This document shows positions 3,529-57,106 of a stretch of 64,000 nucleotides of DNA, piece after piece (position 1 is the stretch's first letter; each line of letters begins with the position of its first letter). The notes under the pieces are model-generated. The model saw only the letters and a program-made list of their open reading frames with translations. It had not been told where the DNA came from and did no database searches. This stretch comes from Magnolia sinica (lineage: Eukaryota; Streptophyta; Magnoliopsida; Magnoliales; Magnoliaceae): the NCBI RefSeq assembly GCF_029962835.1, contig NC_080582.1:16996032-17060031 (forward strand), written 5' to 3'. The translations under genes were made by a program, and so were the position numbers.

Positions 3529-4625
3529 TGTAACGCCCTGTACCTTCAGTACTCGGGAGTTGCCACGAAGACATAGATTAGTATAAACACAAACCTAACT
3601 TACATCTATAAATTCGGCTCTTGATCTATAAGATCCATTGATCATTGAGTCCACAACATCTTGCATAGTGATCCGGTATATGAACACACTAACCAAACAA
3701 TCTAGGTACTGGGTCGAGCATTTTAGTTCATCAGGATAGCTCTTAGGACTATTAGATCAATGATAAACAATTTTGAGACAAACCAAACCATCCAATCGAT
3801 TTATTCTCCAGATGGACCTCTGCAGTAAAGAAGAAATCTATTTTCAAGATTTTCATTTCCTGGTTAGACTAACCTAAACATTCATCTTAGGTTTAGAAGT
3901 CCGAACCACGAGATCCATCGTTCACTAGGTCTATAATGCTTCCGCTGTGACCCATCTAACACTTGATTTTCCCTAAGTCAACTAGTGGGCTACGAAATCA
4001 ACTTTTAAGCCGCAATTAGGCAGTCCTCTTAGCCATCAAAACCATCCTATGTGGGCCATGGAAGGCCTTGATGATAAATCATCTTAAAGATGAGAACAAA
4101 TTCGCCAAATCCATTGATCTAGCACGACCTTCATTCATAGAACAAGCCGCCCATCCAAGTGGCCTTCAAATAATCCATCACCACTTCAAAGGCACCTATT
4201 TTAGGATTTCAATCCCCTGGGTAGACAAACCTAATAGTCCATTTTCAATATCAGGCTCTGTGTCATCAGACTCACCGTCCGGCAGGCCACGGGGCCAAGG
4301 ACCTATGATATGAGCTAATTACATCCTAAACAAAAAAGTAAACCATCATACTTCCTCTAAACTAGGTGGGGAGCCCCAAACATCACTGATGATCAAATTT
4401 GGATGAGATCTCACCGTTGAATGGATGAATATCACCATAGGGAATGCAAATCGTTAATTAAGGCCCACCTAGGACTTAGATATACCTGATCCTTAGTCAG
4501 GGGACCCATTTAGACTCATAGAGCACCATGAATGGAGCAGATTTCTCAAAAACACCACTATGGACCCCGCCTTAGTCGTGCATGAGCACAGATCATGTGT
4601 ACCAGATGTGCACTGGACCAAAAAG

Positions 4626-4651
4626 ACACGGTCAAACGGATTTGACCGTGT
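4626..4651. repeat. 11-bp hairpin in LARD U3 (also at 11232-11257)
   Basis: ACACGGTCAAA pairs exactly with TTTGACCGTGT around CGGA. The same hairpin is unchanged in the 3' LTR copy. 'ATGATCCAAACCGTCCATCTG'-like sequence follows about 90 bases later, as in the Tat LTR. Confidence 0.7.
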
Positions 4652-5694
4652 TTTCCCGCAATGGGGAGCACCCCCTTTTTCACAGCAACGGACGAGGGAC
4701 GCCCGTTTCTTTGATCAATGGCCCACCTATACTGGCATTTAGGATGATCCAAACCGTCCATCTGACTCGGGCGGTGGGCTCGACCAAAACCCAGTAATTT
4801 CCACGTGTTGGTACATCCACGAAAGCACACAGATTCCGGCGCAAACAGGGCCTGGAAGCACATAGTTTCCAAAAAAGGAAACTGTCCATTGCCAGCTGAG
4901 TAATCCGGGTGCGCCCTCATCCTCGGATCTCATCCGTCCATGGGAAGAATATCCTAGCCGTCCAATGCCATCTGATCGAGCTGTGTGAATAAAAGGAAAA
5001 AAAAAAAAGAAAGAAAGAATGAGAGGGAGAGAAAGAGCAGCCGAAAATCAGCTCCCTCCTATCCGGTTGAAACAACCAACCAAACTTCCCTGAAGCTTCA
5101 AAAATCCATGTCTCTAAGCTCCTCTGAGCCTATACGCACCACCTAAAACAGTCGGCTCGAAGAAAAGCCCATCGATTCGTGATCCGCCATTAGAGCTTGG
5201 AGTGTCTTCCTCGAATGCTCGTGCCGCACCGAACCACTGTCGAGTCTCTATGTTGACTCGGCTCATCGTGCTGCTGAGCCTGGTTCGGTCCAAGTCATCC
5301 TAGGAGAGAGAGCAGAAAGAAAAGAATAAGAAGGAGAGAGGAAAAGAGACAGAGAGAGGTGCGGCTACACCAAGCGGCTGTCCGACTCAGTCGGGTCATT
5401 GCTGGATCGAGTCCAGAGGTTGTCGGACCCCTCTGAGTGAAGAAGAAGGTGAGAGGAAGTAGAGAAGGAAGGAAAGAAAAGAAGGGAGAAAGGAAGAGAA
5501 GCGAAAAGAGAGAGAGGTTGGCTGCTTGGTGCGGCAGCACTTAACCGAATCGAGTTTGGGCCGAGTCAGGCCAAGCTCGGCACCCATTGCTGGAGTTCTA
5601 GCACACACGCACAGACAGAGAGAGGAGGAGAAACGAAAAAGAAGTGAGGAGAAGAAAGACGGAGAGAGATGGAGGAGAAACGGAAAAGAAGTGA

Positions 5695-5696
<2 letters not shown>

Positions 5697-5737
<41 letters not shown>
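5697..5737. repeat. (GA)n microsatellite
   Basis: Uninterrupted GA dinucleotides of about 40 bases inside a longer purine-rich stretch (5295-5740) within the LARD LTR. A second shorter GA run is at 6029-6052. Confidence 0.9.
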
Positions 5738-5740
<3 letters not shown>

Positions 5741-7139
5741 GTGGCTGGCAAAACCGGCCGAGTCAGGTTCGAACCGAGTCGAGTCCAGCTGGGTCGGGTT
5801 AGGTTTGGTCTAGCCCAAAAACCCCACTGGCCTAGCTGTGCTAGCAAAGAAGAAGCTTAGAAGGTGGAGGGGTGTATGCGTTGTGGCTGTTTAGTCACTC
5901 CTGAGTTGACTCAGCGAGTTGACATGTTGCATCAAGTGGGCCAAGCCTTGAGTTGAGCACGGCTGGACTGAGTTTAGACTCCATTCTGGCTCACCCCTGA
6001 GTGAAAGAAGAAGAGAGAAAGAAGATAGAAAGAGAGAGAGAGAGAGAGAGAGTGGGAGGAAGCTGAGTCAACTCGACTCGAACCGAGTCGACAAGGTGCG
6101 TCCACCTTTACTTCCCATATTTAATTTATTCCAATTATCATTGTTACTATTCTTACCATTTTTGGATTATTAAAATTAGATATGATTGACCATTAGTAAA
6201 TTATTCGTTTGGGTATTAGTTGATGCATATAAAAATTATCATTATTAAAATATTAATATTTTACCTTGTTGTTCTTAAAATATTATTATTAATGCTAGAA
6301 CACACTATTATTTTCATCAAAATGACTATTAGTGTCACATTGGCTAAATGTTAAGTATATTATTAATATTAATGATTGTTTTGGAATTATTATTATTATT
6401 ATTCATCGTGGGTTGTATTAGGTAATTTAATATAATAGTAGCCATTGTTAATATTCCTAAAATTAATAACCAATTCACTTGATTAATTTTATTCATTTAT
6501 TCTTTCCATTGATTGTATCATAAATGGCCACACAAAATAGGGTTCAAATCCCATAACCGAAGCTTAAAAATCTAGCCTAAGCCTAAACCCTAGGGTGAAA
6601 CCCTAAACCTAAGTGATCCAAACCCTAGGTTATAATCTCAACCATAAAAAGTATGTAAAACTTGATCTAACCATACAATTTCATTATTCATGATAGGACC
6701 CGATTCTAAGGGCGCAAGCACTTAGCGACACTAAAAGGGAATTCGAAGTATAAGGTGATGATTTCTTCCCCTTGAGCTTTCTATCTTCCCATTAGCTTAA
6801 GTTATAGTTTTATTTTAATTTATAATTGATATCTCCCTGTTATAATCACATGTATTAGCTGGTGGAAATTAAATTGCTATATTACTTACTTAATGTTCAT
6901 CCTGTATATTTGTTCATGCTTATGGATTAATTGCGGATTGATTATGGAACTTAAACTGGTACATCAGTGAAAAATCTCCACCTATATGTGTACACCCATA
7001 CTTGGGATGTAACCCAACTGGTTGTGATAGTAATGGACCTTCTGCTTAGTGGTTTTTGAATGATGGTTTGAATTGACCATTGATGTGGGCCTACCATCTA
7101 GGGTTGTTGTGTCCAATGGTCTTCAAAGATGGTCTTTTA

Positions 7140-7260
7140 TCGCATGGTTTTGATACTCGCCTTATGTGGCATATTTTAATAATTGTCATATGTGGCTTGT
7201 TTTGATATCGCCTTATGTGGCTTGTTTCTGGTATTTGCTCTATATGGGTTCGACGTTTTG
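7140..7260 (+). repeat. Short tandem repeat in LTR (unit about 33 bp, containing 'CTTATGTGGC')
   Basis: Three to four imperfect units share 'TCGCCTTATGTGGCTTGTTTT'-like sequence. The reverse complement of the same unit is repeated at 63,440-63,560, which ties the LARD LTR and the terminal reverse-strand LTR to one family. Confidence 0.6.
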
Positions 7261-8249
7261 TACTACGTAACTATGTGATGGTAAACCTCATATATTGTAA
7301 TATGATTGGCCACCAGTTAACGGAGTTCCATTAAACATCCTAAGATGGTAGTCTCATGAGCTGAGGATGGTGGTATAGGATCTATGCCCGAGTTGTCGGC
7401 TTACGCTGGTGACGAGCTCCTATAGTGACCTTGAGCTTATCTAAATTGGTTGATTGTAATTGGACTAATAATGGTTTGGCTAATCATATATCCATAGCAT
7501 ATTGGGGATGACGAGTGGCTAATTCTGGATGCTATAACACGTGCCCTTAGGATCATCGGGGTATCGTTTCGCTAGCTCCCAGACCACTGACTATTGATCT
7601 ATTGTTCCGACTGGATGATTTTCCCAGGTCAATGATTTGTATGGATGACAAGCCCAACTTCTGCACAGATGTGCATCCCCGGGGCATGACTGCATTCACG
7701 CATCCATGCATCTAATAAGACCTGCATCGTGTATTGTTTTGTATGCTTTGCTTTTATACTATTTTCAGCCTGATGCAGCGGTGTATAATCTTGAGGGGAA
7801 TTCGCACTGAGTTGGACACTCATTCATCAAATATATAACCGTACAGGTAGCACAGGTGGCCCAAATGATGTTCACATTCATACTGGTGAGGAGCAGGCTA
7901 TGGTTGACATGGGTGCATGATTGTATTTGCTAAGGGCTGCTACAGGATTTCAAAGCTCAAGATTGTTGCAATTTACTTTGTTTCACATGTAATGTTATTT
8001 CATTTTGTATTATAAGAATGGGGACATTGGTTTGTATAAGTCATTATGGGCTACCTCTTGTATATTCTAAATGTAATTGCCAAATTTTCCTTTATGCATA
8101 CTTGTCCATTCTATGCTCATCTGTTTACTCTGATAGTTGAAATACACACACACACACACACTCGAATTTGACCATCCTTTAAGGTTAACACTTGGGTTTT
8201 TGGGAAACGAGTCATATACTCGGGTCCTGAAAAGTCAAGGCATTACAGT

Positions 8250-8261
8250 TGGTATCAGAGC
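8250..8261 (+). other. Primer binding site (initiator Met-tRNA)
   Basis: TGGTATCAGAGC, the standard plant Ty3/Ty1 primer binding site, lies two bases after the LTR end. It fixes the 5' LTR right boundary at 8247. Confidence 0.9.
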
Positions 8262-10134
8262 ATAGTTTGGACAAACTTGGCCTTGGGAAATGATCTTATA
8301 CAACTTTAATGTCTCAAGTTAGGATATTTAAATTAGAAAGTTGAACTTAGCTGAAATTCCCTTAGACTTAGAAAAGTGATTGAAAATGTAGAAATCCAAA
8401 CTTAGGTTCCCCCGAGAATTATTAGATTAGTCATTTGAATGTATGCAAGATTCCCTTAGAATAAGAGAAAATTTGAAACGTAGAAATTTCAAACTCTAGA
8501 TTCCCTTGAGAATTTTATGTTAGACCGCTGGACTTTAAACTTATGTAAAAGTCCCTTAGAAATGATTAGAATAACCATTTGAACTTATGTGAATGTCCCC
8601 TGTAGTTAGGAGAAACTGGGAACATAGGAACTCGAAATACTAGGCCCCTAGAAACTTGTTGGATGCCCAAAAGACTTAGAAATGAACTTAGGTCCCCTTC
8701 AAACGTTTTAGCCTTAATCAATCGAACTTGGAAATGGAACCTTTGGTTCTCTTGCAAACTACCAGGATAGTCGTCTAGACTTAGAAACTAAGCTTAGGCA
8801 TTGTAGAAAACAAGTGCCTGCCATGATGCAAATGGGGATTATTATGAACATTCCCTGAACCTGACACTCGATGAAAAACCCTTAGAAACCTAGAAATTAA
8901 ATTTTCCTAATCTGCATTGTTAGAACATTTGACAAGTAAATGAGACTTAGGCATCGTAGTAATTTCCCTTGACTACCATGATTGTCATTAGGTTGCACAT
9001 AAGCACTCCTCGACCTGAGAAATTGTACGAAGGATTAAAATTTTAACTTCCTAGTACGTCTCCTTACTTATAAATAATATTTCCTGCAAATCCTAGTACA
9101 TGAAATTAATTAGAGAAAGAATTATATAATTTCAACCCTAGGTTGAACTTATAAGGACTAGGATTGGGAATCTGGATAAAATTTCAAATTCAGAGTTTCA
9201 CGTAAAAATTTTGGTCGTAAATTTTTTTTTTTTTAAGTGCATTAGGTGACCAGAGTGCGCACTGGAAGCGTAATGGTTGTTCACGTCTATTCACATAGAG
9301 TTCGGATGTTCTCATTGAAAATAAAAAAGAAAAAGACAAAAAAAACTAGTATGATTACGTGGTATTTCCCATGAGTCTAGAACAACTGGGATCACGGATT
9401 GATGGAACCATTTTTAGATGAAGCTTACGTGGTTTGACTCAAGTTCTAAGTCCTATCAAATCTCAATAATTTCAATGCCCTAATCAGGTAGAAGATCGAG
9501 ATCTACCAGGACTAGGAAACGATATAGTAAATCCTCTGTTCTGTGCAAACATAGAACCCATGCATCGAGCTCAAACCTACTACGACCATCTATCCGTGAC
9601 AGCTCGAACACTGAAAACCAGAAGATTGTGTCATACTTTAGATAGTGAGGAACTATCATTAAAGGAAAAGGAAAATCATGAGAAAGGTATGAAATAGTAT
9701 AAGAAATTTTAACATTGATAAGCATTAAAATGAATCATTAGGTTTAGAATGATTCCTACCTTGAGTGGGGCTTAGACACCTTAATTGAATTGCTAGACAA
9801 GAAACCTAGGGGTTGTGAGCAATTGAGATAAAGCTCGCTAGGATTTCATACATAGATGTAGGGCACATCTTTCGGATAATTGAACTGCTCATAACGTTAA
9901 CAATGGGTACGTATATTATTAAATATTGAAGTAGAACTTTATTTATTTTTCTTTAAGGGGGGTACATTGCAATGACCTTGGTCCTAGTAGTAAGTCATGA
10001 GCGCTTGCATATATAAATAAACTTAGCGTGGAGAACTAACAAATGCATACGAACACCATAAGGTGGGTTGTTGTCCATATTCATAGTCGAAGTGTTGAAT
10101 TTCCAGGGCGAAATTCTCTTTAAGGGGGGTAGAT
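8262..10134 (+). mobile_element. Non-coding internal region of the LARD-like element
   Basis: Only 1.9 kb separate the primer binding site from the 3' LTR. No gag or pol reading frame is visible in any frame. From about 8290 to 9060 the sequence consists of degenerate repeats built on 'CCCTTAGAA...CTTAGAAA' blocks. The region ends in the polypurine tract 'AAGGGGGGTAGA' just before 10135. Lack of coding sequence means it would depend on proteins of another element. Confidence 0.7.
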
Positions 10135-46559: not shown

Positions 46560-48918
46560 AAGGTATGTTTTATCCTTTTATCCTTCTTTCCATTAATACG
46601 AGCTATTAGTTTGGAGAACATATATAGATGAAGTAGATACAAATCTCACGATTGAATTCCCTCCGTTAAAAACTTTTGGGAGATACAAAAGTTTCAGTTA
46701 AGCTACCTTATTAGCCCAGGCTAATGGGAGAGTTCGTCATCATCATCCGCATCTTATACCAACTAATTGGGGTTTGCTAGAAAGTCTATATATATAGCAA
46801 ATATCTAAAATAAATAAATCCTACTCTGCATTTAGTCATGGTTCTAAAACTCGACTCGACTCGACTTTGTGAGTTTCGAGTTGAGTCACTCCAAAACTCG
46901 CTTGGTGAGCTTGACTGGTCAGACTCGTGGAGTTGTACTCTAGCAGCTGATTCAGTCAACTCGATACAACTCAGCATGACTCGATCCATTTCTTTCTATC
47001 TGTTTTTCTCTTTGTTTTTTCAAAACAACAGTAGAACTTTGTGTCATTGTATTAGCAGTAAGGGTGGTTTTAAACACTCAACATGCCTATATAAAAAAAA
47101 CACAAGCTTACTGGTTTTGGAAAAGTAGTTTGCACAAGTACAGTGTTACTACTAATGCAGTGGCCCTTTAAATCAAGGGTCTTGATCCATTTCAGCTATC
47201 TGCATGCACCATCCATTAGGTCAAGCCACCCTTTAAAAAATCGTACTGATTGAATGATCCAACCCATCCATTCAGTGGTTTGAAGAAATTGATTGACAAG
47301 ATTGTTCATTAAAGATAGAACCGTTTGATTGCTACTGTTTTTGCACAATAACAACAGAAGATTAGACTGCTTCTAAAGAACGGACCAGATTGGAGAAGTG
47401 AATGATGACAAGTTCAAATGCAACTATATATGTGTGTTTTAAGGTTTCCATGCACATGGTCCACTAGATAATTTCTCCAGTGAAAATATCCACCAATATC
47501 AGAAGATGCTGCCCAAGTGCTTAGGGTCATGAATTTGAATCTTACAAACTGGAAATTATTTATTTTTATTTAAAGGTACACATTGACTTGGAGTCATGCC
47601 GAGTGTGTTGAGTTGACCGAGTGAGTTGTGTCAAGTTGACCGAGTTGATGAGCTGATGATCATGCCGAGTCATGCCGAGTTGACTGGGTAGATGAGCCGA
47701 TGATCATGTCGAGTCTGAACCAAAGTCGAGCTCGAACAAGTTTCACAGTGACTCAGCTCAATTTCTGGCAAAGTTGAGTTAACTCGGCGGAGTCGAGTCA
47801 CCAAGTTTTAGAATTATCCAGCCACATATGACATATGACATATGAGCAAAACTCAACAGGATTTTTTCTATTAACAATACCGACCATACATATTTCATTT
47901 GCTGTCCAAAAACCCTAAAGTTAAAATCCATGTTTCAATGGTAATTTATGGAAATCATGGTTGAATAATTATTACTATTTCCTTTCTTTTCTCTTGAATT
48001 TCATGTGGAAAATTCTTAGTGGACCAATTATATGGGGGTGACTGTATAACCTAACTGTATGATGTTCGTAGACCATGTGGTTCCCAAAACACCACATGGT
48101 TTGTATATAAAGGCGCTTGGGTTAGAAATGTGGGCCATTTATATAGCTATCACAGAGAAATCTGGCTCAGGTTGAACCCTACCAATCCCGACCCACTTAT
48201 ATATCTATCACAGAGACTGGACCAAAGATCCAATCCTACCCAACCTTTTTATTTATTTATTTATTTAATTCCAACCCGACCTGAACCAAAAAGAAATTTA
48301 TAGATAATAGGTACAAATACATCCACATGACGTATGTATGTTTGCATGCATTCACAAATTGGGATGGATTGGGCATACCTTTATTTCATATTCCATTCTT
48401 AAACTCAAGCCGTGGTTGTGATAGGTCAGGTCGGGTTGATCAAGCCTGACGAGATTATAATTAAATTGATTGGGTGGGGGCTTGGGCAGTCTCAGTGAAT
48501 TTGAAGTGTATTATGTCTGACCATAAGATAAATATGGGTCCCAGGTTGGTTTTGGCTGGAATTCTTAGCCTACTTAGCAAATGAGTCGGGCTTGGGTTGA
48601 CATCATCCTAATCAACAATCCATATATTGCCTTTATAATCACGTAATGCTTTAGGAATTTTACAAAAGAAAACTACTAAATTAATATAGAATTTACATTT
48701 TAATACCTTTTTCAAAATGGTTATCGATCAGTTGCCTCATTGATCTAAGTAGGGTTGGTTCATATGCATAAGGGGCCTGCCTGGGTGGGCCCCACTGGAT
48801 GTTTATGCAAAATCCACCCCAACGACGAGGTGCATAACCTTATTGGTCATAGGGCTTAAATTAATCAGCTCCATCCTGATTCAGGTGAACCACAAGATTG
48901 GAAACATTGTACAGGACA
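46560..48918. other. Intergenic; GACTCG-type degenerate repeats, no gene
   Basis: Two patches of overlapping GACTCG/GAGTTG/CGAGTC words (46,845-46,990 and 47,585-47,815) resemble those at 5.5-6.1, 13.4-13.7, 16.9-17.0 and 61.73-61.90 kb. The remainder is AT-rich and has a short ATTT run (48,250-48,268). No coding sequence is supported. Confidence 0.5.
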
Positions 48919-49397
48919 CACTACAAGAAAAAGGGTCGTAGCCGACCGATGGACCAACCCTTTCCCGGCGGCCAGTTTTAACGGCTGCCGGCAGGGTTTG
49001 TACATATAAAGAGAAAAAAAACAAAAAAACAAAAAACAAAACCGTACATAACCTATCTCGACTCTCTCTCTCCCTCTCTGCCACTCTCCCTCCCTCTGTC
49101 TGCCACTCCCTCTCTCTCTCGCACGCTCTCCCTCTCTCTCCTGCTCCTTCTCCATCTCCGGCCCTCTCCCTCTCCCTCTTCCTTTCCCTCTCCACTCGCG
49201 CTCCCTCTCACCCTTCCTCTCCCTCTCCCTCTCCATCTCCCTCTCACTCTCTCTATCCCTATCTCTCTCTCTCTCTCTCTCTCTCTCAAAACCCTAGTCC
49301 TCTTTCTCTCTTTATCTCCTCGGCCCTTTTCTGGAACATTAGGTATCTCTCTCTCCGCTCGATCTACCGCACATCAAGGAGCATTCTGCTGCAACAT

Positions 49398-49399
<2 letters not shown>

Positions 49400-49461
<62 letters not shown>
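49400..49461. repeat. (TC)n microsatellite in CACTA leader
   Basis: About 30 uninterrupted TC units following GCAACATCAGG; upstream (49,060-49,290) the leader is also CT-rich. Confidence 0.9.
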
Positions 49462-49463
<2 letters not shown>

Positions 49464-50733
49464 TATCTATTCATATCAATTTGGGCATTTTTTGGCATTT
49501 TTTAATCCTTCATGTAACATTGTGCAATGATTTGTGTATTGGGATTTTTTGAGTTTCGAATCCCTAATTAGGGATTTGTAGTGTCGATTCCCTAATTGTG
49601 GATTAGCGTAGAGGTATTGTCTAAGAGAAGACAGTCATGTATCAGAGGTCCATTTGCATGAAGATGCTGATATGGGCTAGAAAAGTTTTGGATTCCTTCG
49701 TCCAGGTCTATTTGACCTAATTAATAGGTTGGATGGTAAATAAAGATTACAGTGGGCCCTGATCTCAAGATGCCTATGTCTACTACTTGTATGAAAATTG
49801 TTGCCAGATTGATCTATTGCCTTTTCCCTCACTGTAACAATCGTTTATCATGCTCTGGGAATAGGCACTTAACTTACAGTATTCTATTTATAATCCTCTG
49901 AAATTGTAATCCAAGAGGACTACAGACCCTGATTTGAACCATCCACTCTATCATTATTTTAAAGAAAAGCTTATGACTCTTGCAGAGTGTGATGGATGAT
50001 GAGCAAGCACTTAGAAATTAATAAACTACATATGTGGCATACTAGTTACATTAAACCGTTCAAATTATAGTATCAAGTGTAGATGTATCATGAATAAAAA
50101 ATTAAGCTTAGTTGATTATGTGACTACTAGATTGGTGGACATTTATTGGATTAGTTTAGAATGAAAATATCCAGCAGTCCTATTTCCACAATCAAGTGTC
50201 TATGAATAAGAGGTTAGGATTGTGACTTGGCAGTAGTATCAAGAATCCATAGTCTGATGGGTATCATCTTTGAGATACATCCATCTTCTGCACAATGCAA
50301 GAGATGAACAGTGGATCTCCTATATGTGTTGCTGCATGTACAAGGACAGAGTTCCTGATTTCTAAGAAAAAAAAAAAGAAGCTTCGAAGATTCATATCCT
50401 TTCTCACAATATAAACAGCTAGATTCAATCCAACTAGTATGCACAAAATCACATTTTAGCTCCCTGAGATCCCTAGCATGGTTGTATCAAATGAATGTCA
50501 CTCAAGCATGATGAAAGACGCAATATTGTAAAAGGATGGAAGCAAAACACACATGCATATTATATACATATCTATCCCCGTCTTGTCACTCGTCCATCTC
50601 AGCATCCTCGTTTCAGCTACACTCATCCTATGGGCATGTTGTCCTTATCTGCCCAACATTCTGTGTCATCAGGCATGGCTGGTCTTATAGCTATCATATA
50701 CCTTTATGAAAAATAAGCAAAAAGACTGTCTAC

Positions 50734-51240
50734 CTTCAACAACTCGTCTCTCCCGCAACCTTGCAGCACCTGCACTTTCCTCCTCGTCCTCTCTTGCAAA
50801 AGGGGCTTCACAACCTGCCAAGAGTTAAGTAACATCCCCATTAGCATGCAAGACAGGCTATGCATTGTTGAAAAGAAAAGGAAAAAATATAAATTTTTTA
50901 GTGAATTAACCAAAAAAATTAGATTTATAACCAGTGGATAATGAGCATGTGGACAGCATGTCTCCTAAGGAAACTCTAAAATAGCTTTTACGTGAAGGCT
51001 ACAATGTGGCATTTTAACTTCTTTTGTCCAAAAATTGAAAATGATGGTTTGCATCTCTTCACTTTCAAGGAAAGAATCTGGAAAAGCATGAAAAGAGTGC
51101 CATTTCTTGAGTTTCTGAATTTTCACTTGGATTAGAATTCAGCAAATGAATGGAAACATCACAATGTGGCTGATTCTATAGCTTTTTTCTTTCCTGAGAC
51201 AAAATTTATCCAAACATGACCTAAAATATAACTAGAAATT

Positions 51241-51289
<49 letters not shown>

Positions 51290-51427
51290 AGAAAATCGGA
51301 TTCAAGGAAAAGCATGGATACTCACCTTCTAAGACGCTGAAAATATATATGGAGCATTAACTATATAATTTGTCTCCATCTTCTCTGGATAATTCAAGTC
51401 ATCGATAGTAGATATAATGGTCAATAG
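50734..51427 (-). pseudogene. SEC14-like (CRAL-TRIO) lipid transfer protein fragment, two exons
   Basis: SEC14 proteins exchange phosphatidylinositol and other lipids between membranes. On the reverse strand, exon one is 51,427-51,326 and exon two 50,814-50,734, with canonical GT/AG borders and phase zero. They encode LLTIISTIDDLNYPEKMETN and YIVNAPYIFSAS, a TAG stop (51,331-51,329), K, then VVKPLLQERTRRKVQVLQG and CGRDELLK. The family has 'YIVN.PYIFSACWKVVKPLL', so the stop replaces the tryptophan TGG by a single base change. The CRAL-TRIO N-terminal half and everything after 'ELLK' are missing. It is the only captured fragment in reverse orientation. Confidence 0.75.
51242..51289. repeat. 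(AT)n microsatellite
   Basis: About 24 uninterrupted AT units; it lies in the SEC14-fragment flank inside the CACTA element (between the first exon and the intron region). Confidence 0.95.
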
Positions 51428-52460
51428 CTGCAATGACAGAGCAAACAAAGAAATCTTAACAAGCTTTCCATTGATTCACAAGTAGATAAATGGAATGTAA
51501 GGTTTTAGAGCAAACATGTTTAGATACAAATATCCATATTTAGGTGAGAAACTCAATACCAAATTTCCTCGTTTACAAAAAAGAATAAACAAAGGCATGT
51601 TCAGAACTACAAAAGAAAAAAAAAGAAAAAAAAAGAAAAAAAAAAAAAGAACAGTTCAAAAATTTCTATCAAGATTCACAAGCCAATGCTAATTGCTATG
51701 AACCACCTTTGAAAAAAAGCATCAGAAAACACAGCAACATTGATGTTCCTTGATTTCCTCCAAACCAATTTGGAATCCTAATGCAGGGCTAAATCCATGA
51801 CAGATTTTAAAATAGCAACTAACAAGGGCACAACATTTTATCTAAAGAAATGACATGTCGAGCACATGCATCTGCCACGTGGATACACATTAGAATACCA
51901 GTCTCTCTCTCTCTTTTTTTTTCTCAGCTATATCTATCTACTGTTCACCTCCAATTTTAATTTTGACATATAAATCTAAATAACTAGATACAGTTTTTCA
52001 TATTCTATACTTGCATAATATGAATCATTATTTGATAATGACAAGCACTTCAATATTACCAATGAACTGCTTGGATGGGTCAGTGTATCTAGTTTTATTG
52101 GGTCATTGTAGCTGACAATTAGATTCCATGCTGACATTCCCAAATCCTCCTTTGCTAATTTAAAATCAAGGATACAGTATACCTGGTTTTCAATTTTGTA
52201 AAAGTTGCATGTTTCAGTGATAGACTGTTGGTCTGATGTATGGTGTGTCATAACAGCCATTACGTAAAGGTAACGGTGGCAACCATCACATAATGGCCGT
52301 CATGGAAAAAAAATGACCTGTAAGAGCTGTTACAGCTCCCTGCAAAGGCCTACCTTGTTGAAATAACTCCTTCAGTTGTTCTACCCCAGAGTTCCGTGCA
52401 TCTAATTTAATGATATGATATTTATGTTGTGCTATTTTATTTATTTATTCTTTCTCACAG

Positions 52461-52529
52461 GCATTTAGAGAGGATTTCTTAGAAGACAAGCTGAAGCCTT
52501 TCTTCATGTCAAACCCAATGCCTGAGACC
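52461..52529 (+). pseudogene. PDIL: Protein disulfide isomerase exon fragment
   Basis: PDI enzymes form and rearrange disulfide bonds in the ER. This 23-codon open exon after acceptor CTCACAG encodes FREDFLEDKLKPFFMS and NPMPET. That matches the block before the second thioredoxin domain of plant PDI ('FGEDFLEDKLKPF.KSDPIPE'). The donor is damaged: ATATAT follows where GT is expected. No thioredoxin CGHC site is present. Only this one exon is recognised. Confidence 0.7.
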
Positions 52530-52959
52530 ATATATAAGTTGTAACATTTTACTTCCAAAGTTTTTTTTTTTGGCACCAAGTGTTATGTTATTCTAATTTG
52601 GCAGATCTAATTGTTCAATCCATGAAGTGAAAGATGGGGCCTAGAAGATGGAACATGATGATGGTAGGCTTATTACTATATTTTCTGCTCCGAACTACTG
52701 TGACTAGGTAATCAAATTGCATGTAGGTATCTCTTAATTATGAAATACGTTTGGTTGTGTGAACATTTTCTGGAATGTGCCTGACTTCTTTTGTTGGGGT
52801 TATTATTTACAGCGTTCTATATCAGTACATTCTTAATGATTTTTAAACTTTATTAGATGCTTTAGTTTCTAGGCACTAGAAATATATGCTCATTACGGCT
52901 ATTTTTCATGTTTCTTGTATTTGAAGATGCATTTAACATCGGTTTTCTAGATATTTGTC

Positions 52960-53177
52960 ATTCTTTATTTATCTATGTAGCTTAGATCATTAGCCCTTCC
53001 ATTCACAGTATTGGAGTGGACGCTTCCAACTTCACCTCGGCCACTTCAAATGGGCCTTCTAGACAATCATCATTATTCTAGGTGCCCCTGTTTTTTGTCC
53101 CAGGGGCACCCAAAATCCCTGTGCTGTATAGGTCGTTCTTAATGAAAGTTCCTCTTTTTGAAAAAAAAAAAAAAAAA
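52960..53177 (+). mobile_element. Probable LINE 3' tail
   Basis: A short segment ends 'AAAGTTCCTCTTTTTG' followed by 17 A residues (53,161-53,177), as in 5'-truncated plant L1 copies. There is no coding part. It sits between the PDI and UBP fragments and may have inserted after capture. Confidence 0.45.
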
Positions 53178-53316
53178 CTATTGTTCGTTCACTTTGATTA
53201 TCGATTGGTGGTTTCACTGAATTCAAGCCTTGTTTCTGAGCATCTTTGAGCCTATAATCATTTTATAATGCTTCTTCCTTGAATTTGTTTCCTGATTAAA
53301 GTCATCTTTGTTCTAG

Positions 53317-53434
53317 GGTGGCACTACAATTCATACATGAGATACAATGCAAGACACAAAAGAATTTCGATGCAAGTAGAGACAGATCATTACCAGTCCT
53401 TGGTTTTGGAGCTTTTATTAATGAGAGTGCTAAG
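53317..53434 (+). pseudogene. Unidentified captured exon
   Basis: Bordered by TTCTAG and an ideal donor GTAAGT, this 118-base segment encodes VALQFIHEIQCKTQKNFD, then ASRDRSLPVLGFGAFINESAK in one open frame (written here in two parts). The sequence looks like conserved protein but I could not name the family. It lies between PDI and UBP12/13 fragments and has the same orientation. Confidence 0.45.
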
Positions 53435-53829
53435 GTAAGTTTTAAGAGCGAGAAATGTTGAACAATATTCTCATGAATAGGATAGAGTGTTTTTTCAGTG
53501 GTACACACAGATGCCAATGTGGCATAGGTGTGTGGTCTGGGCCATTCATCAGGTAGCGCCCTTCAGAATGTTTGCTTGGAATTTCGTGTTATATCGGTAA
53601 TGGGTTCATTCGTCTCATTAACTTCTCTAACAGTTGTTGATGTTAGTTTGGACTGATTAGCATTTTCATATTACAGATGAGATTTAGCAAATGAACTAGA
53701 ATTATTGACTGTTGGCGTTTGGCATCTATGAATGTCCTAGTGTGAGAATGAGTTCATGAAGCTGTTTTCAGTTTGGATAGGAATAGTGCTCTGGGTCCAG
53801 ATGGCCATTGACGTGATTGAAATATCCAG

Positions 53830-54364
53830 GTCAAAGCTTTTCACCTATGATGATGTTGTGGAGAGAGTTGCTCGCCAACTTGGCTTGGATGATCCAACAA
53901 AAATTAGGCTTACTTCTCACAACTGTTACTCTCAACAGCCTAAGCCCCAACCCATTAAGTTCTGGGGTGTAGAACATCTGTCTGACATGCTAGTCCACTA
54001 AAACCAGTTTGTCCATCACAGTGCCTTCCGCTTGTCTTATTGTTTTGTTCATGCTACTATATCTGAGAAATTATATCCAATAACATGTCATGAATGACTG
54101 GAATTTTCCAAGTTCATTTCTTTTGGTGCAGACTTCTGATATCCTGTATTATGAAGTGTTGGACATTCCTTTGCCAGAATTGCAAGGCTTGAAAACTCTG
54201 AAAGTTGCTTTCCATCACTCCACTAAAGATGAGGTGAGATACCAAACCATGAGAGTCATCTAATTCTGGATCAAGTACAAACTTAGGTGTCTTTTGCTTT
54301 CTTTTCAGGGGTTATTCACACTACTAGATTGCCCAAACAGAGTACTGTAGGGGATGTAATCAAC
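53830..54364 (+). pseudogene. UBP12: UBP12/13 deubiquitinase fragment, three exons
   Basis: UBP12/13 are USP7-like plant ubiquitin proteases. Exon one (53,830 to about 54,007) encodes KLFTYDDVVERVARQLGLDD and LTSHNCYSQQPKPQPIK, then VEHLSDMLVH, a TAA at 53,999-54,001, NQ; its donor has lost a G. Exon two (54,132-54,233) encodes TSDILYYEVLDIPLPELQ and LKTLKVAFHHSTKDE with good borders. Exon three (54,309-54,364) encodes VIHTTRLPKQSTVGDVIN but is one base short at its start, shifting the frame. All belong to the C-terminal ubiquitin-like region of UBP12/13. The catalytic and MATH domains are missing. The piece stops at 54,364, 22 bases before the SYP4 exon. Confidence 0.88.
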
Positions 54365-54386
54365 CTCTATGCATTTGCATGAGCAG

Positions 54387-56143
54387 GGCACCATCGTTGA
54401 TCGGATTGACTACAATATACAGAACATTGCAGCTTCAGTGGAAGAAGGCTTTAAAGAGCTGCAGAAGGTACTCCCTCATGTGTTTGTTGGGTGTGCTAAA
54501 ACCTGCAGTGGCATCCCAATGTCATCACACATCTCCCTGTGGAAACCCCTCTCCTGAAAGTAGCTAAGAGCGCCTCTTAGAGGGAACCTCCTGGGAGTGG
54601 TTTTAGCACATCTGCAGAGGCATCCCCAATCTAGAAATGGGATACATCTGCTAGCCCCAAAACCCAGGGAAGGCAACTGCATGTACCATATTGCCTTCAG
54701 AGATAGAGCGCTATTATGCCCATCAAAATTGCAACATGCACCTGCATGCGTCATTGCCTGTCCAAAAGCAGAAAATCTTGCCCTAAGCAAACCTGCAGTA
54801 TGCTCCTGTGCTCTCCACATGGACATGTGTTTGACTTTTGGTCTGTTTTTCTGAGGGTGGAAGCTGTGATCACCCAATAGAGGATTCTCGTGTTTTTCCA
54901 CATGGCAGGAACCCTGCTAGTTCTTGCCCCAAAACAGCCTCCTCTGCTCTTGTTTCTCATCACATCACACTCCTACGTGTGTCATGTGGACGGTATGATA
55001 TCTAGATGTGGATACTGAAACAGCCTCGAATATGGGAACGGGGATACAATTCTCTTCTCAAGAATCCAAGATATGGATATGGGTAATATCCCGTTTGTAA
55101 CATGATATTCATATTTAGTACTGTGATGAAATATTTGACCCAATTCTACTAACTCCTAGTTTTATTAAGAAGGCTAAGACCTTGTTTGGGAGATGCCTAA
55201 AGGTGAGTTCATCCCATTTTTGTTAACAGTAATTATGTATTAGAGATCAAGATCTCTAATACATGATGAGTTCATGTCAATAGTAATCATGCATTAGAGC
55301 ACCTCTCCACACTTTCACCTTCCAAATGGCAACTATCCCCATACAGGCCCTATATTTGCCATGTTTAGTGATGTTCCTCCAAAGAACGTTCTCCACATCC
55401 ATCCAGTCACATGCACCATCCATACACATCATCCCTTGAATGAAGTTTCTCTGGTTTCCTGAGAATCAGTGGCTTTCTTTGGGATATGAACTAATGGCTT
55501 GCATGTCGTGGCCAGGAATGTAAGTGTTCCCACCAAATTAGTATAACCCCATAACTGGTGATTTTTTTTTTTTTTTAAATTTTTTAATTTTTTTTTTAAA
55601 ATTTTCTGAATGTTGCCATAACATGTGATAATGTGGACTTATGCATGTGAATGTTTACTTATTTGTTACAAATCTTAATTATTCCAAGTAGTTCAGATGT
55701 GAAATTTGGCGGCAAGCACAACGCATATATACATGCAATAGATGTATGATGGGAAACCCTTCCCATGCACCTAGTTGGATTCAGACACATGGGAGGTCCA
55801 CACCATCTGGACTGTGCGTTTGGACCAGCCCACTCTTCTTGATCTCCCATTGGCTGCTGGGTGCCTACTATCGTTTTCCGTTGGTCCCATGCTTTCAAGC
55901 TTGAGGATGATAATTCTCATGGATTATGCATCTATTTCCTTGTGTCTGTGTGCGTCTGTATGTCTTCGCATGTTTGCCACTGTTGGAGATATGCTTCTCT
56001 ATTATACAGTTTCATATATGAAGCTTGACTTGCAGGCAGAAAGAGCGCAGAGGAAGGGGGGAATGAAAATGTGCGCGACAGTACTCGTCATCCTCTGCTT
56101 CATTATGTTGGTGCTTCTGGTTCTCAAGACGATATTCTTGTGA
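54387..56143 (+). pseudogene. SYP4: SYP4-group syntaxin (SYP41/42/43) fragment, last two exons
   Basis: SYP4 syntaxins are Qa-SNAREs of the trans-Golgi network. Exon one (54,387-54,467) encodes GTIVDRIDYNIQNIAASVEE and GFKELQK, the second half of the SNARE motif. The final exon (56,036-56,143) encodes AERAQRKGGMKMCATVLVI, then a membrane segment CFIMLVLLVLKTIFL and TGA. Both exons are open, in phase and have canonical borders around a 1.57-kb intron that holds a small inverted repeat (TGTGCTAAAACC at 54,491; complement near 54,597). The N-terminal Habc region and the first half of the SNARE motif are missing. It directly follows the UBP12/13 piece. Confidence 0.85.
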
Positions 56144-56789
56144 TCCTGTGTAATATCAATCCGAATCCGATCTCGAATGGAGCCTTAGTTTTAGTTGCAA
56201 GAATCGCAAAAGTGGATGGCTGTTCTATAAACACATGGAGTTCATATTCACCCTTCCATTGGCCAGTGCGTGTTGTAGCGGGGAAAGCTGATTCGGCGAG
56301 TCAGGTTTTGAAAATGTAAACAAGATTCTCGTACAATCATCAACTCCAAAACTAGAAAAACCAATAGCAAGCAGACAGGGATCCTAAGACAACTAATCCA
56401 AGGCCAAAGGCCCACAACTAGCAACAAAGCAATCCAAAGAGACTGGACCCTGAGCATGAAGGCAGGCTCAACAAGCTAGCTGAATCAAATCTCATAAGAG
56501 CTCTCGGTTTCAGACATTTTTCGGCTCATGCCTAAATGATCATGTATTGCCTTTTTTGTATATACAGGTACTCATAAGAGCTCTGTGAGGAATTTGCTGA
56601 GAATCCTAAAAATACAACTCTTTACATATTTGTAGTGGGATTCCATCGCTATGTTCTTGAATTATTTAGTAGTTTTGCTTGATTAATTTATAGAAAAAAA
56701 AAACTAGGATGTGGGTTACCTTTTCTTTTCTTCTTTTTTTTTTTTTAAAAAAAAAAAAACTTTTTGATAAGAAAGATTTTCTCCATTGC

Positions 56790-57055
56790 TATGGATTGTC
56801 GGTGGCCAGGCCTCTAAGCTACGGTACCAATGGCTACGGTCGTACTTTAGACTTTAGCTACGAATTCTATCCGTAGCCTTTTAGTATGTAGCGGCGGCCA
56901 GCACAACTGTCAGTAAAGTCCTGACCGCCGGCAAAGCCTTTACCGACTGAGGCTTTACCGGCTGTTAGCTGACCGCGGGCAAAGGATTTTGTGGCGGTTT
57001 TTTGGGTCTTTGCCGGCGGTTTTGACCGCCAGTAAAGGCTATTTTTCTTGTAGTG
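56790..57055 (+). repeat. Right subterminal repeats of the CACTA element
   Basis: Contains 'GCTACGGTACCAATGGCTAC', several 'CCGCCGGCAAAG', 'TTTACCGACTG' and 'TTTGCCGGCGG' words in both orientations, ending in the terminal inverted repeat. Confidence 0.75.
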
Positions 57056-57106
57056 ACAACACTCACCCTTCAAACTATTTTCCATGAGATGGCTCACATG
57101 AATCTT

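Follow-up and report, generated by a model that had tools for sequence, protein, structure and literature searches.

The window, that is, the whole analysed stretch of 64,000 nucleotides of Magnolia sinica DNA (NC_080582.1, positions 16,996,032 to 17,060,031, forward strand), contains a CACTA element that spans 48,919–57,055 (8,137 bp). Its ends enclose a left part with SEC14, PDI-like, protein phosphatase 5 (PP5) and WDR11 pieces and a right part with UBP12/13-type and SYP4 pieces, in the arrangement given below, where L numbers denote other loci of the genome and J numbers denote joins.

48,916–48,918, unstranded: left target site duplication ACA; L054, the related empty site, has ACA once, by eye
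48,919–48,932, forward: 5' terminal inverted repeat CACTACAAGAAAAA; the inverted 3' end matches it at all 14 bp
48,919–49,404, forward: module A, CT-rich 5' subterminal region, 72–95% to related elements
49,405–51,637, forward: module B, antisense SEC14 region, common to L009, L010, L011 (part), L012, L013 (97–99%) and L014
50,735–50,815, reverse: SEC14 (CRAL-TRIO) exon, VVKPLLQERTRRKVQVLQGCGRDELL; reading frame and Pfam CRAL_TRIO
51,335–51,432, reverse: preceding SEC14 (CRAL-TRIO) exon, QLLTIISTIDDLNYPEKMETNYIVNAPYIFSA; reading frame and Pfam CRAL_TRIO
51,638–53,677, forward: module C, PDI-like, PP5 and WDR11 pieces and an exon without family, common to L012 and L013
52,461–52,538, forward: PDI-like exon, weak assignment (PDB best E 0.045)
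52,618–52,704, forward: PP5 exon piece with internal TAG stop, by eye; the L050 version matches PP5
52,981–53,055, forward: WDR11 second beta-propeller piece, LRSLALPFTVLEW... (1.6e-8, above the curated cut-off)
53,315–53,434, forward: exon RVALQFIHEIQCKTQKNFDASRDRSLPVLGFGAFINESAK, open frame, no family
53,675–53,677, forward: J1, 3-bp overlap AGA, L012-type on the left and L025/L021-type on the right; both partners continue collinear
53,675–53,808, forward: module D, 134 bp forming the tail of a longer unit present in L021, L025, L045 and L046
53,805–53,808, forward: J2, 4-bp overlap CCAT (exact base walk)
53,818–54,007, forward: UBP12/13-type exon 1 piece, end of the USP7 ICP0-binding domain (USP7_ICP0_bdg 1.1e-10)
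54,132–54,233, forward: UBP12/13-type exon 2, open, start of USP7_C2 (1.1e-5, below the curated cut-off)
54,309–54,364, forward: UBP12/13-type exon 3, cut off at 54,364, with 1 bp missing from the window copy
54,364–54,365, forward: J3, UBP12 piece to SYP4 intron, overlap 0 (exact base walk)
54,365–56,317, forward: module F, 3' part of a SYP4 gene; donor L039 on C14
54,387–54,467, forward: SYP4 penultimate exon, SNARE motif (SNARE family match)
56,036–56,143, forward: SYP4 last exon, SNARE end, tail anchor and native stop (SNARE family match)
56,318, forward: J5, one filler base (exact base walk)
56,319–56,694, forward: module G (G1 56,319–56,493 and G2 56,487–56,694), sequence that follows the UBP12 piece in L021 and L022
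56,695–57,055, forward: module T, repeat-bearing 3' subterminal region and 3' terminal inverted repeat, 84–85% to sister copies, mostly gaps
57,056–57,058, unstranded: right target site duplication ACA; a single ACA in L054

The original prediction was of a complete Pack-CACTA with these coordinates, ends and ACA duplication, and our observations agree with it. The inverse of CACTACAAGAAAAA terminates at 57,055, so that the two ends belong together as a perfect 14-bp inverted repeat, and a 21-nt motif is repeated three times at the 3' end; the CACTA...TAGTG termini, the 3-bp duplication and the subterminal motifs are those of the CACTA superfamily. Used as queries, the 5' 200 bp and the 3' 276 bp matched at least 41 and at least 55 stretches of the genome, respectively (lower bounds, with 40 candidates scored each), and because both recur at so many stretches, the ends are not due to chance. 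Further copies and an empty site, which the prediction proposed to look for, were both found. The same module order stands at three further loci, whole in L009 and with deletions in L010 and L011, each having its own matching 3-bp duplication, and the duplications at the four insertion sites mostly differ from one another; the four are copies moved as a unit. The related repeat L054, 130 kb from the element, provides the empty site, where ACA stands once. Ordinary genes or pseudogenes, nested or side by side, that carry CACTA-like ends by accident would explain none of this, and the copies, duplications and empty site refute such a reading, as well as one of collinear host genes; we give it practically no weight. 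The outcome named as refuting, gene pieces that run on past the ends in collinear parent loci, was not seen either: the UBP12-type and SYP4 pieces end within the element while their donor genes, located elsewhere in the genome (C6 and L039), continue past the piece borders. Among 18 sequences surveyed for ends (the window and 17 loci of about 10 kb), 11 allowed both ends to be placed, and 10 of these have an identical 3-bp duplication, the exception being L020; L014 and L025, both with the duplication, have one base altered in the terminal CACTA or TAGTG. In the other seven, one end lies outside the stretch, is altered or was not found. Between sister copies the ends are more diverged (module A 91–95%, module T 84–85%, mostly gaps) than the middle (97–100%). 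Taken together, these features identify a complete non-autonomous Pack-CACTA.

The cargo is richer than the five pieces claimed originally: seven were found, with PP5 and WDR11 added. The SEC14, UBP12-type and SYP4 assignments stand, and the PDI assignment is weak, since that exon has no Pfam match, although five of its six PDB matches are PDI. The SEC14 piece lies antisense in the element (CRAL_TRIO E 2.5e-7), and L014 matches module B at 92% as far as 51,619. Outside the fetched elements, the nearest match to the SEC14 region is C10:24420257-24421187 (90%); a CRAL_TRIO genome search did not find the SEC14 parent, none of its 40 listed matches being near that place. The L050 version of the PP5 piece gave a best E of 1.5e-6 with 9 of 13 matches named PP5, and that of the WDR11 piece gave 2.9e-8; the WDR11 piece had no useful match in PDB. 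The exon at 53,315–53,434, noted earlier as lacking identity, still matched no protein family in Pfam and further searches. Module C is partly collinear with L050 on C9, which we considered as the donor gene and rejected: its frames form a mosaic of PDI-like, PP5, LRR, WDR11 and others, and it is therefore only a source-like relative. The L012-type frames present in L050 gave no family match. The proposed alignment to parent genes succeeded for SYP4 and the UBP12-type gene, and the genome comparison did not pin down donors for SEC14, PDI, PP5 and WDR11.

In the right part, module D also occurs alone at 10 other places. The UBP12-type donor gene lies on C6 at about 96.286–96.303 Mb, where three collinear domain pieces are found; the donor piece L041 matches the element from 53,818, and the UBP12 exons gave nothing useful against PDB. 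Module F contains the end of an intron, the last two exons with the intron between them, the stop and the 3' region of SYP4 (SNARE family match 5.5e-17), and matches the intact donor gene L039 at 97.6% over 1,825 bp and 97.6% over 125 bp; at 56,190–56,192 it lacks 97 bp of the donor and has a TTT filler instead (J4). Because the SYP4 intron and 3' region came along, the earlier claim of capture from DNA is supported. L040 likewise has G1 and the beginning of G2 downstream of its UBP12 piece. The 6.1 kb around the SYP4 donor showed no other element piece.

The relatives that lack individual modules give the joins a direction. L012 and L013 run past 53,677 collinear with L050, and to the left of 53,675 a sequence is common to L025, L021, L045 and L046; L022, L040 and L042 extend leftward without module D. 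Beyond the point where SYP4 starts in the window, L021 (5,610–6,408), L022 (2,785–3,588) and L040 (1,494–2,301) remain collinear with L041. A single ancestral capture of all pieces, with later deletion in the relatives that lack some, would be in keeping with the deletions seen within the family (L010, L011). At J1, J2 and the SYP4 insertion, however, the forms without the neighbour carry longer collinear source sequence and no bare deletion scar, and we regard a single capture as highly improbable. Instead, the cargo was put together in three or more polarised steps, of which J1, at least, united two transposons. The element is a late hybrid, its left from an L012-type and its right from an L025-type Pack-CACTA, joined at AGA.

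Much of the order is read directly from the sequence. First, two or more relatives that have a CACTA 3' end (L021 and L022) hold a UBP12-type piece with intron, and in both of these it has stayed collinear with the donor-gene piece. Second, in one branch, the longer unit whose tail is module D was joined to the left of this piece at CCAT. Third, the 1.95-kb SYP4 3' piece replaced DNA between the UBP12 piece and the sequence next downstream of it, which produced the L025-type right part. Fourth, this right part was joined at AGA to an L012-type left part, whose cargo is SEC14, PDI-like, PP5, WDR11 and the exon without family. Fifth, the hybrid, with a short stretch of the SYP4 3' region deleted, lies at four places with separate target duplications. 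Since L023 has SYP4 without UBP12 and a further SYP4 match lies at C6:87975889, there were additional exchanges, and the order may be more tangled. Divergence declines from the SEC14 block (4.1–4.7%, L014 against the others) over the UBP12 donor piece (2.9–3.9%, a distance biased by constraint on the exons in the gene) to the SYP4 donor (1.8–2.7%), which agrees with this order. Distances do not date J1 against the copies, because in module C the window-type copies are poorly separated from L012 and L013 (L009–L013 1.19%, L009–L010 1.38%).

The six joins have overlaps of 3, 4 and 0 bp, fillers of 3 and 1 bases and, at J6 between G1 and G2, an overlap of 3 bp (AAA). Overlaps of at least 3 bp are expected in 6.4% of random joins and occur in three of the six (p 0.0045), or in three of seven (p 0.0075) if J7, kept out of the count for point differences near an A tract, is included as having no overlap; microhomology is only a tendency, because J3 has no overlap and two joins contain filler. 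The joins could have arisen by double-strand-break repair where elements were excising or close by, either through end joining or through gap repair that copies from a template. Alternatively, two neighbouring insertions could have fused with loss of their inner ends, which is possible above all for J1.

As predicted, no transposase is visible: a six-frame Pfam scan of 48,919–57,055 (E up to 0.01) gave WDR11, SNARE, USP7_C2 and CRAL_TRIO only. In a genome search for Transposase_21 (TNP2-type), all 150 candidates scored, out of 1,669, matched. One of them, a candidate transposase frame (C14:18780734-18781366), is on the same strand as L021, with the L021 3' end about 10.7 kb downstream, and L021 itself has a DUF4216 match (1.9e-12) and a sub-threshold Transposase_24 match. 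We infer movement in trans by a CACTA transposase and consider it very likely overall that the element is a stepwise-assembled, non-autonomous Pack-CACTA mobilised in this way.

The UBP12 and SYP4 exons lie on the same strand, and in the window copy the exon 2 donor of UBP and the SYP4 splice sites are intact and the SYP4 frame is open to its native stop; captured CACTA exons are described as spliced into transcripts in soybean Tgm-Express1 (PMC1947982). A functional chimeric gene for a tail-anchored fusion protein could be imagined on these grounds. Against it, the splice donor of UBP exon 1 is lost (GT to TT) in each of the eight element copies that were compared, a TAA stop interrupts exon 1 of the window copy besides the frameshift in exon 3, and L009 has a stop within the first of the two captured SYP4 exons. 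We therefore reject a domesticated fusion gene as very unlikely. As its host-gene frames are decaying, the cargo probably travels as a passenger and has no coding function.

Pickup of host genes by CACTA transposons has been argued from models and a few worked cases. Rice Pack-MULEs are non-autonomous DNA transposons that capture genes and differ from the window element in superfamily, ends and duplication length. That CACTA elements capture several genes was rightly stated in the original prediction: Tgm-Express1 is described as carrying fragments of five unrelated host genes, whose exons and introns are kept between CACTA ends as here (PMC1947982). Unlike that report, ours offers sister copies, module-lacking relatives and an intact donor in one genome. 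Arabidopsis Pack-CACTA and rice and maize Pack-TYPE elements likewise have transposase-free ends around gene pieces, and their AB and BB groups are explained as fusions of related elements (PMC8903248); in contrast to the cases described there, several joins here can be polarised to the base, and the gene piece acquired last took the place of internal DNA. In Chenopodium, host gene fragments occur in CACTA-like elements, also together with transposase domains, and the account describes a single fragment per element, unlike the window element (PMC8978399). We suspect that L021 similarly combines gene pieces and transposase domains. The kind of element is thus already known, and its assembly record is unusually full: one genome retains the product, its copies, module-lacking relatives, the SYP4 and UBP12-type donors and a related empty site, and therefore the order and the precise joins are legible for three or more steps. 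The joins can be compared with the rival mechanisms of neighbouring-insertion fusion and internal gap repair.

L020 is a 5.4-kb foldback whose 2.7-kb arms, 96.8% alike, are built from window modules including UBP12 and SYP4 pieces, and it offers a natural locus for testing silencing by captured sequence. Like maize Mu killer, it repeats transposon sequence, terminal repeats included, in inverted orientation, a layout that could give a long hairpin RNA; it differs from Mu killer as described in that its arms carry UBP12 and SYP4 modules and not transposase (PMC3440606). A broader reading would combine an exon-shuffling family, in which the main step would be exchange between Pack-CACTAs, with halves joined at few-base overlaps and host-gene DNA patched into internal gaps, with L020 as a foldback derivative that acts as a Mu killer-like silencer, restraining the family and incidentally touching the donor genes UBP12 and SYP4 through small RNAs; we consider this joint reading unlikely. 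L020 contains perfect 21-mers to UBP12 and SYP4 exons.

The element named in the original prediction is real. In the window (contig C10:16,996,032-17,060,031; genome of 1.84 Gb in 127 contigs) it runs from 48,919 to 57,055, and its ends, said to be intact, form a 14-bp perfect inverted repeat (CACTACAAGAAAAA from 48,919, with the inverse ending at 57,055); subterminal repeats were found at the 3' end, and the ACA target duplication is present on both sides. The joined flanks of the element (250 + 250 bp) matched C10:16914720-16915193 (89%, query 1-500) and C6:1199603-1200092 (88%, query 1-499) unbroken, with weaker matches at further places. The C10 relative, L054, has the single ACA expected of an empty site (121 bases read by eye): it reads GGACAATACTCACC where the window has GGACA, the element and then ACAACACTCACC. 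The joined flanks match dispersed places without interruption, one of them with a single ACA, so the element inserted into one copy of a dispersed repeat. Left of the insertion, 27 bp (48888-48914) are missing from L054, a difference compatible with change in either direction.

Other copies, which were to be sought with both ends, were found. Genome searches with the 5' 200 bp and the 3' 276 bp gave at least 41 and at least 55 matched stretches, respectively (40 candidates scored each), and 17 loci of about 10 kb each were compared with the window (18 sequences). The window-type module set is also carried by three sister copies: L009 is whole (96.6% over 8,191 aligned columns), L010 lacks 54,624-55,928, and L011 lacks 50,879-51,638 and 54,373-55,130. 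In 11 of the 18 sequences the two ends could both be located; in the others (L013, L021, L022, L024, L026, L028 and L029) one end was altered, was not found or fell beyond the sequence compared. Identical 3-bp duplications flank 10 of these 11, counting L014 and L025, each with one terminal base changed; L020 is the sole exception. Alignment of the end modules showed that the ends of the sister copies diverge more than the middle: the window is 91-95% identical to its sisters in the 5' module, A, and 84-85% in the 3' module, T (44-51 gap columns and 13-16 mismatches), where the sisters are 91-94% identical among themselves.

Between these ends lies the following cargo:

two consecutive SEC14 exons; minus strand; CRAL_TRIO, 2.5e-7
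one PDI-like exon; plus strand; weak assignment (best PDB E 0.045; Pfam without match)
52,618-52,704; plus strand; PP5 piece, whose version in the C9 locus L050 matches PP5 at 1.5e-6
from 52,981; plus strand; WDR11 piece, 1.6e-8, over the cut-off in a six-frame Pfam scan
one further exon; plus strand; name not assigned
three UBP12/13-type exon pieces; plus strand; USP7_ICP0_bdg, 1.1e-10, and USP7_C2, 1.1e-5
last two SYP4 exons; plus strand; SNARE, 5.5e-17

The Pfam matches bear out the predicted SEC14, UBP12/13 and SYP4 fragments; UBP12/13 and SYP4, as names beyond the Pfam families, are putative, by resemblance to plant sequences. The predicted PDI fragment stands as a PDI-like exon, weakly assigned. 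As had been claimed, no transposase is visible: the six-frame scan at E up to 0.01 gave no transposase family. The capturing family is broad: among related elements with other cargo, L014 has LRR frames, L015 a long open frame for which the Pfam search had no match, and L027 a weak RCC1 match below the cut-off.

SYP4 and UBP12 could be traced to donor genes; SEC14, PDI, PP5 and WDR11 could not. On C14, the SYP4-type gene L039 looks intact, its earlier exons, SNARE exon and tail-anchor exon all being in place by eye, and the window matches it at 97.6% over 54,365-56,189 and 56,193-56,317. This match spans the intron, in line with the claim that the fragments keep introns. For UBP12, a PF12436 genome search placed three collinear pieces (profile 1-34, 134-173 and 190-241) at 96.286-96.303 Mb of C6, minus strand, with another collinear set of this kind on C18; the C6 piece, L041, is 96.4% identical over 550 columns starting at 53,818. 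L050 (C9:62293600-62297600), collinear with the cargo of the left-part relative L012, has the look of a mosaic, with PDI-like, PP5, WDR11 and LRR frames. Since its pairwise differences are uneven (3.0-3.8% in one stretch, 5.7-7.1% in another), it is not a simple donor. L050-type matches lie at two places some 380 kb from each other (the other at C9:62.68 Mb).

Three joins could be polarised because relatives run past them into longer shared sequence. The first (J1; 53,675-53,677, overlap AGA) separates modules C and D. To its left, L012 and L013 have 48,919-53,677 in common with the window, beyond which they stay collinear with L050; to its right, L025 and L021 match the window but leftward enter a unit common to L045 and L046. 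A 250-bp stretch (53428-53677) that matches many dispersed places at 92-95% ends exactly here, which makes J1 the edge of a short repeat. Past the second join (J2; 53,805-53,808, CCAT), L045 and L046 go on rightward, and L022, L040 and L042 leftward; as the 13 bases 53,805-53,817 are absent from the C6 gene piece, an older join lies at 53,818. At the third join (J3), the window, L009, L010 and L025 switch from UBP12 to SYP4 at 54,365, and the UBP12 piece of L021, L022 and L040 stays collinear with L041 beyond this point. Modules G1 and G2, downstream of the UBP12 piece in L021 and L022, directly follow SYP4 in the window; a CACTA 3' end is present in L021 and L022. In L025, D, UBP12, SYP4, G and the 3' end are combined with a different 5' part, and 97 bp missing from the window at 56,190 are retained. 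The window type is therefore hybrid, its left part being of L012 type and its right part of L025 type.

Pairwise differences, which give relative age only, fall in the same order as this assembly: 4.1-4.7% for the SEC14 block between L014 and the rest, 2.9-3.9% between the UBP12 donor piece and the elements, 1.8-2.7% between the SYP4 donor and the elements (about the same as the 1.6-2.4% among the elements themselves) and 1.0-1.6% for module C among window-type copies. Contrary to a clean order, L009 and L013 differ by 1.19% in module C, as close as L009 is to its own type; the uneven divergence of L050 and the more divergent ends also depart from it.

The exact overlaps at six joins are 3, 4, 0, filler 3, filler 1 and 3 bases (J7, which ends in an A tract, was left out). 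Random joins at the same loci overlapped by at least 3 bases in 6.4% of 200,000 trials, giving p 0.0045 for three of six joins, or 0.0075 for three of seven with J7 counted as none. Such short overlaps fit end joining or template switching. They leave room for the fusion model of Catoni and colleagues, as described in PMC8903248 and PMC13317346, whereby the inner ends of two adjacent insertions are lost and the pair moves as a single unit; J1 is exactly as that model would predict. Replacement of sequence within the UBP12 block by SYP4 requires one of two things: gap repair with the SYP4 gene as template, or two L021-type insertions, one on each side of the SYP4 3' end. Since the SYP4 gene is intact, the captured piece was copied, or the donor restored afterwards.

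A PF02992 genome search for a transposase source gave 150 matches in the best 150 of 1,669 candidates. One, C14:18780734-18781366 (+), is a Transposase_21 open frame of 385 aa with no stops; on the same strand, the 3' end of L021 (C14:18782600-18792590) follows about 10.7 kb downstream. L021 contains DUF4216 (1.9e-12) and a Transposase_24 match below the cut-off, and is probably part of a transposase-bearing CACTA with a UBP12 piece. It has no SYP4.

The UBP exon 1 splice donor is changed from GT to TT in all eight element copies compared (window, L009, L010, L011, L021, L022, L024 and L025) and kept in L041 and L044, and in L042 as judged by translation. In the window copy, UBP exon 1 contains TAA and exon 3 has lost 1 bp; the PP5 piece contains TAG, and L009 has a stop within SYP4 exon 1; the window SYP4 exons are still open with splice sites intact. 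From the sequences, this pattern suggests passenger DNA that is decaying neutrally.

This kind of element is already known; the completeness of its record in one genome is unusual, and we found no base-level ladder of such joins among the titles and abstract openings listed for open-licence papers. Two derivatives deserve mention. L024 (C8:18820900-18830890), a right-half derivative, matches the window at 99.7% over 1,318 bp; its UBP12 piece has zero differences from that of L010, and it adjoins Copia-type retrotransposon frames on the other strand (by eye). In L020 (C1:9098300-9108290) the right half is inverted-duplicated: a self-alignment pairs 4,187-9,552 with its reverse complement (96.8%, 5,407 columns), the arms are about 2.7 kb long, and both outer ends are 3' CACTA ends. 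Its layout resembles that of maize Mu killer (PMC3440606); it has 229 perfect 21-mers in common with L041 and 385 with L039.
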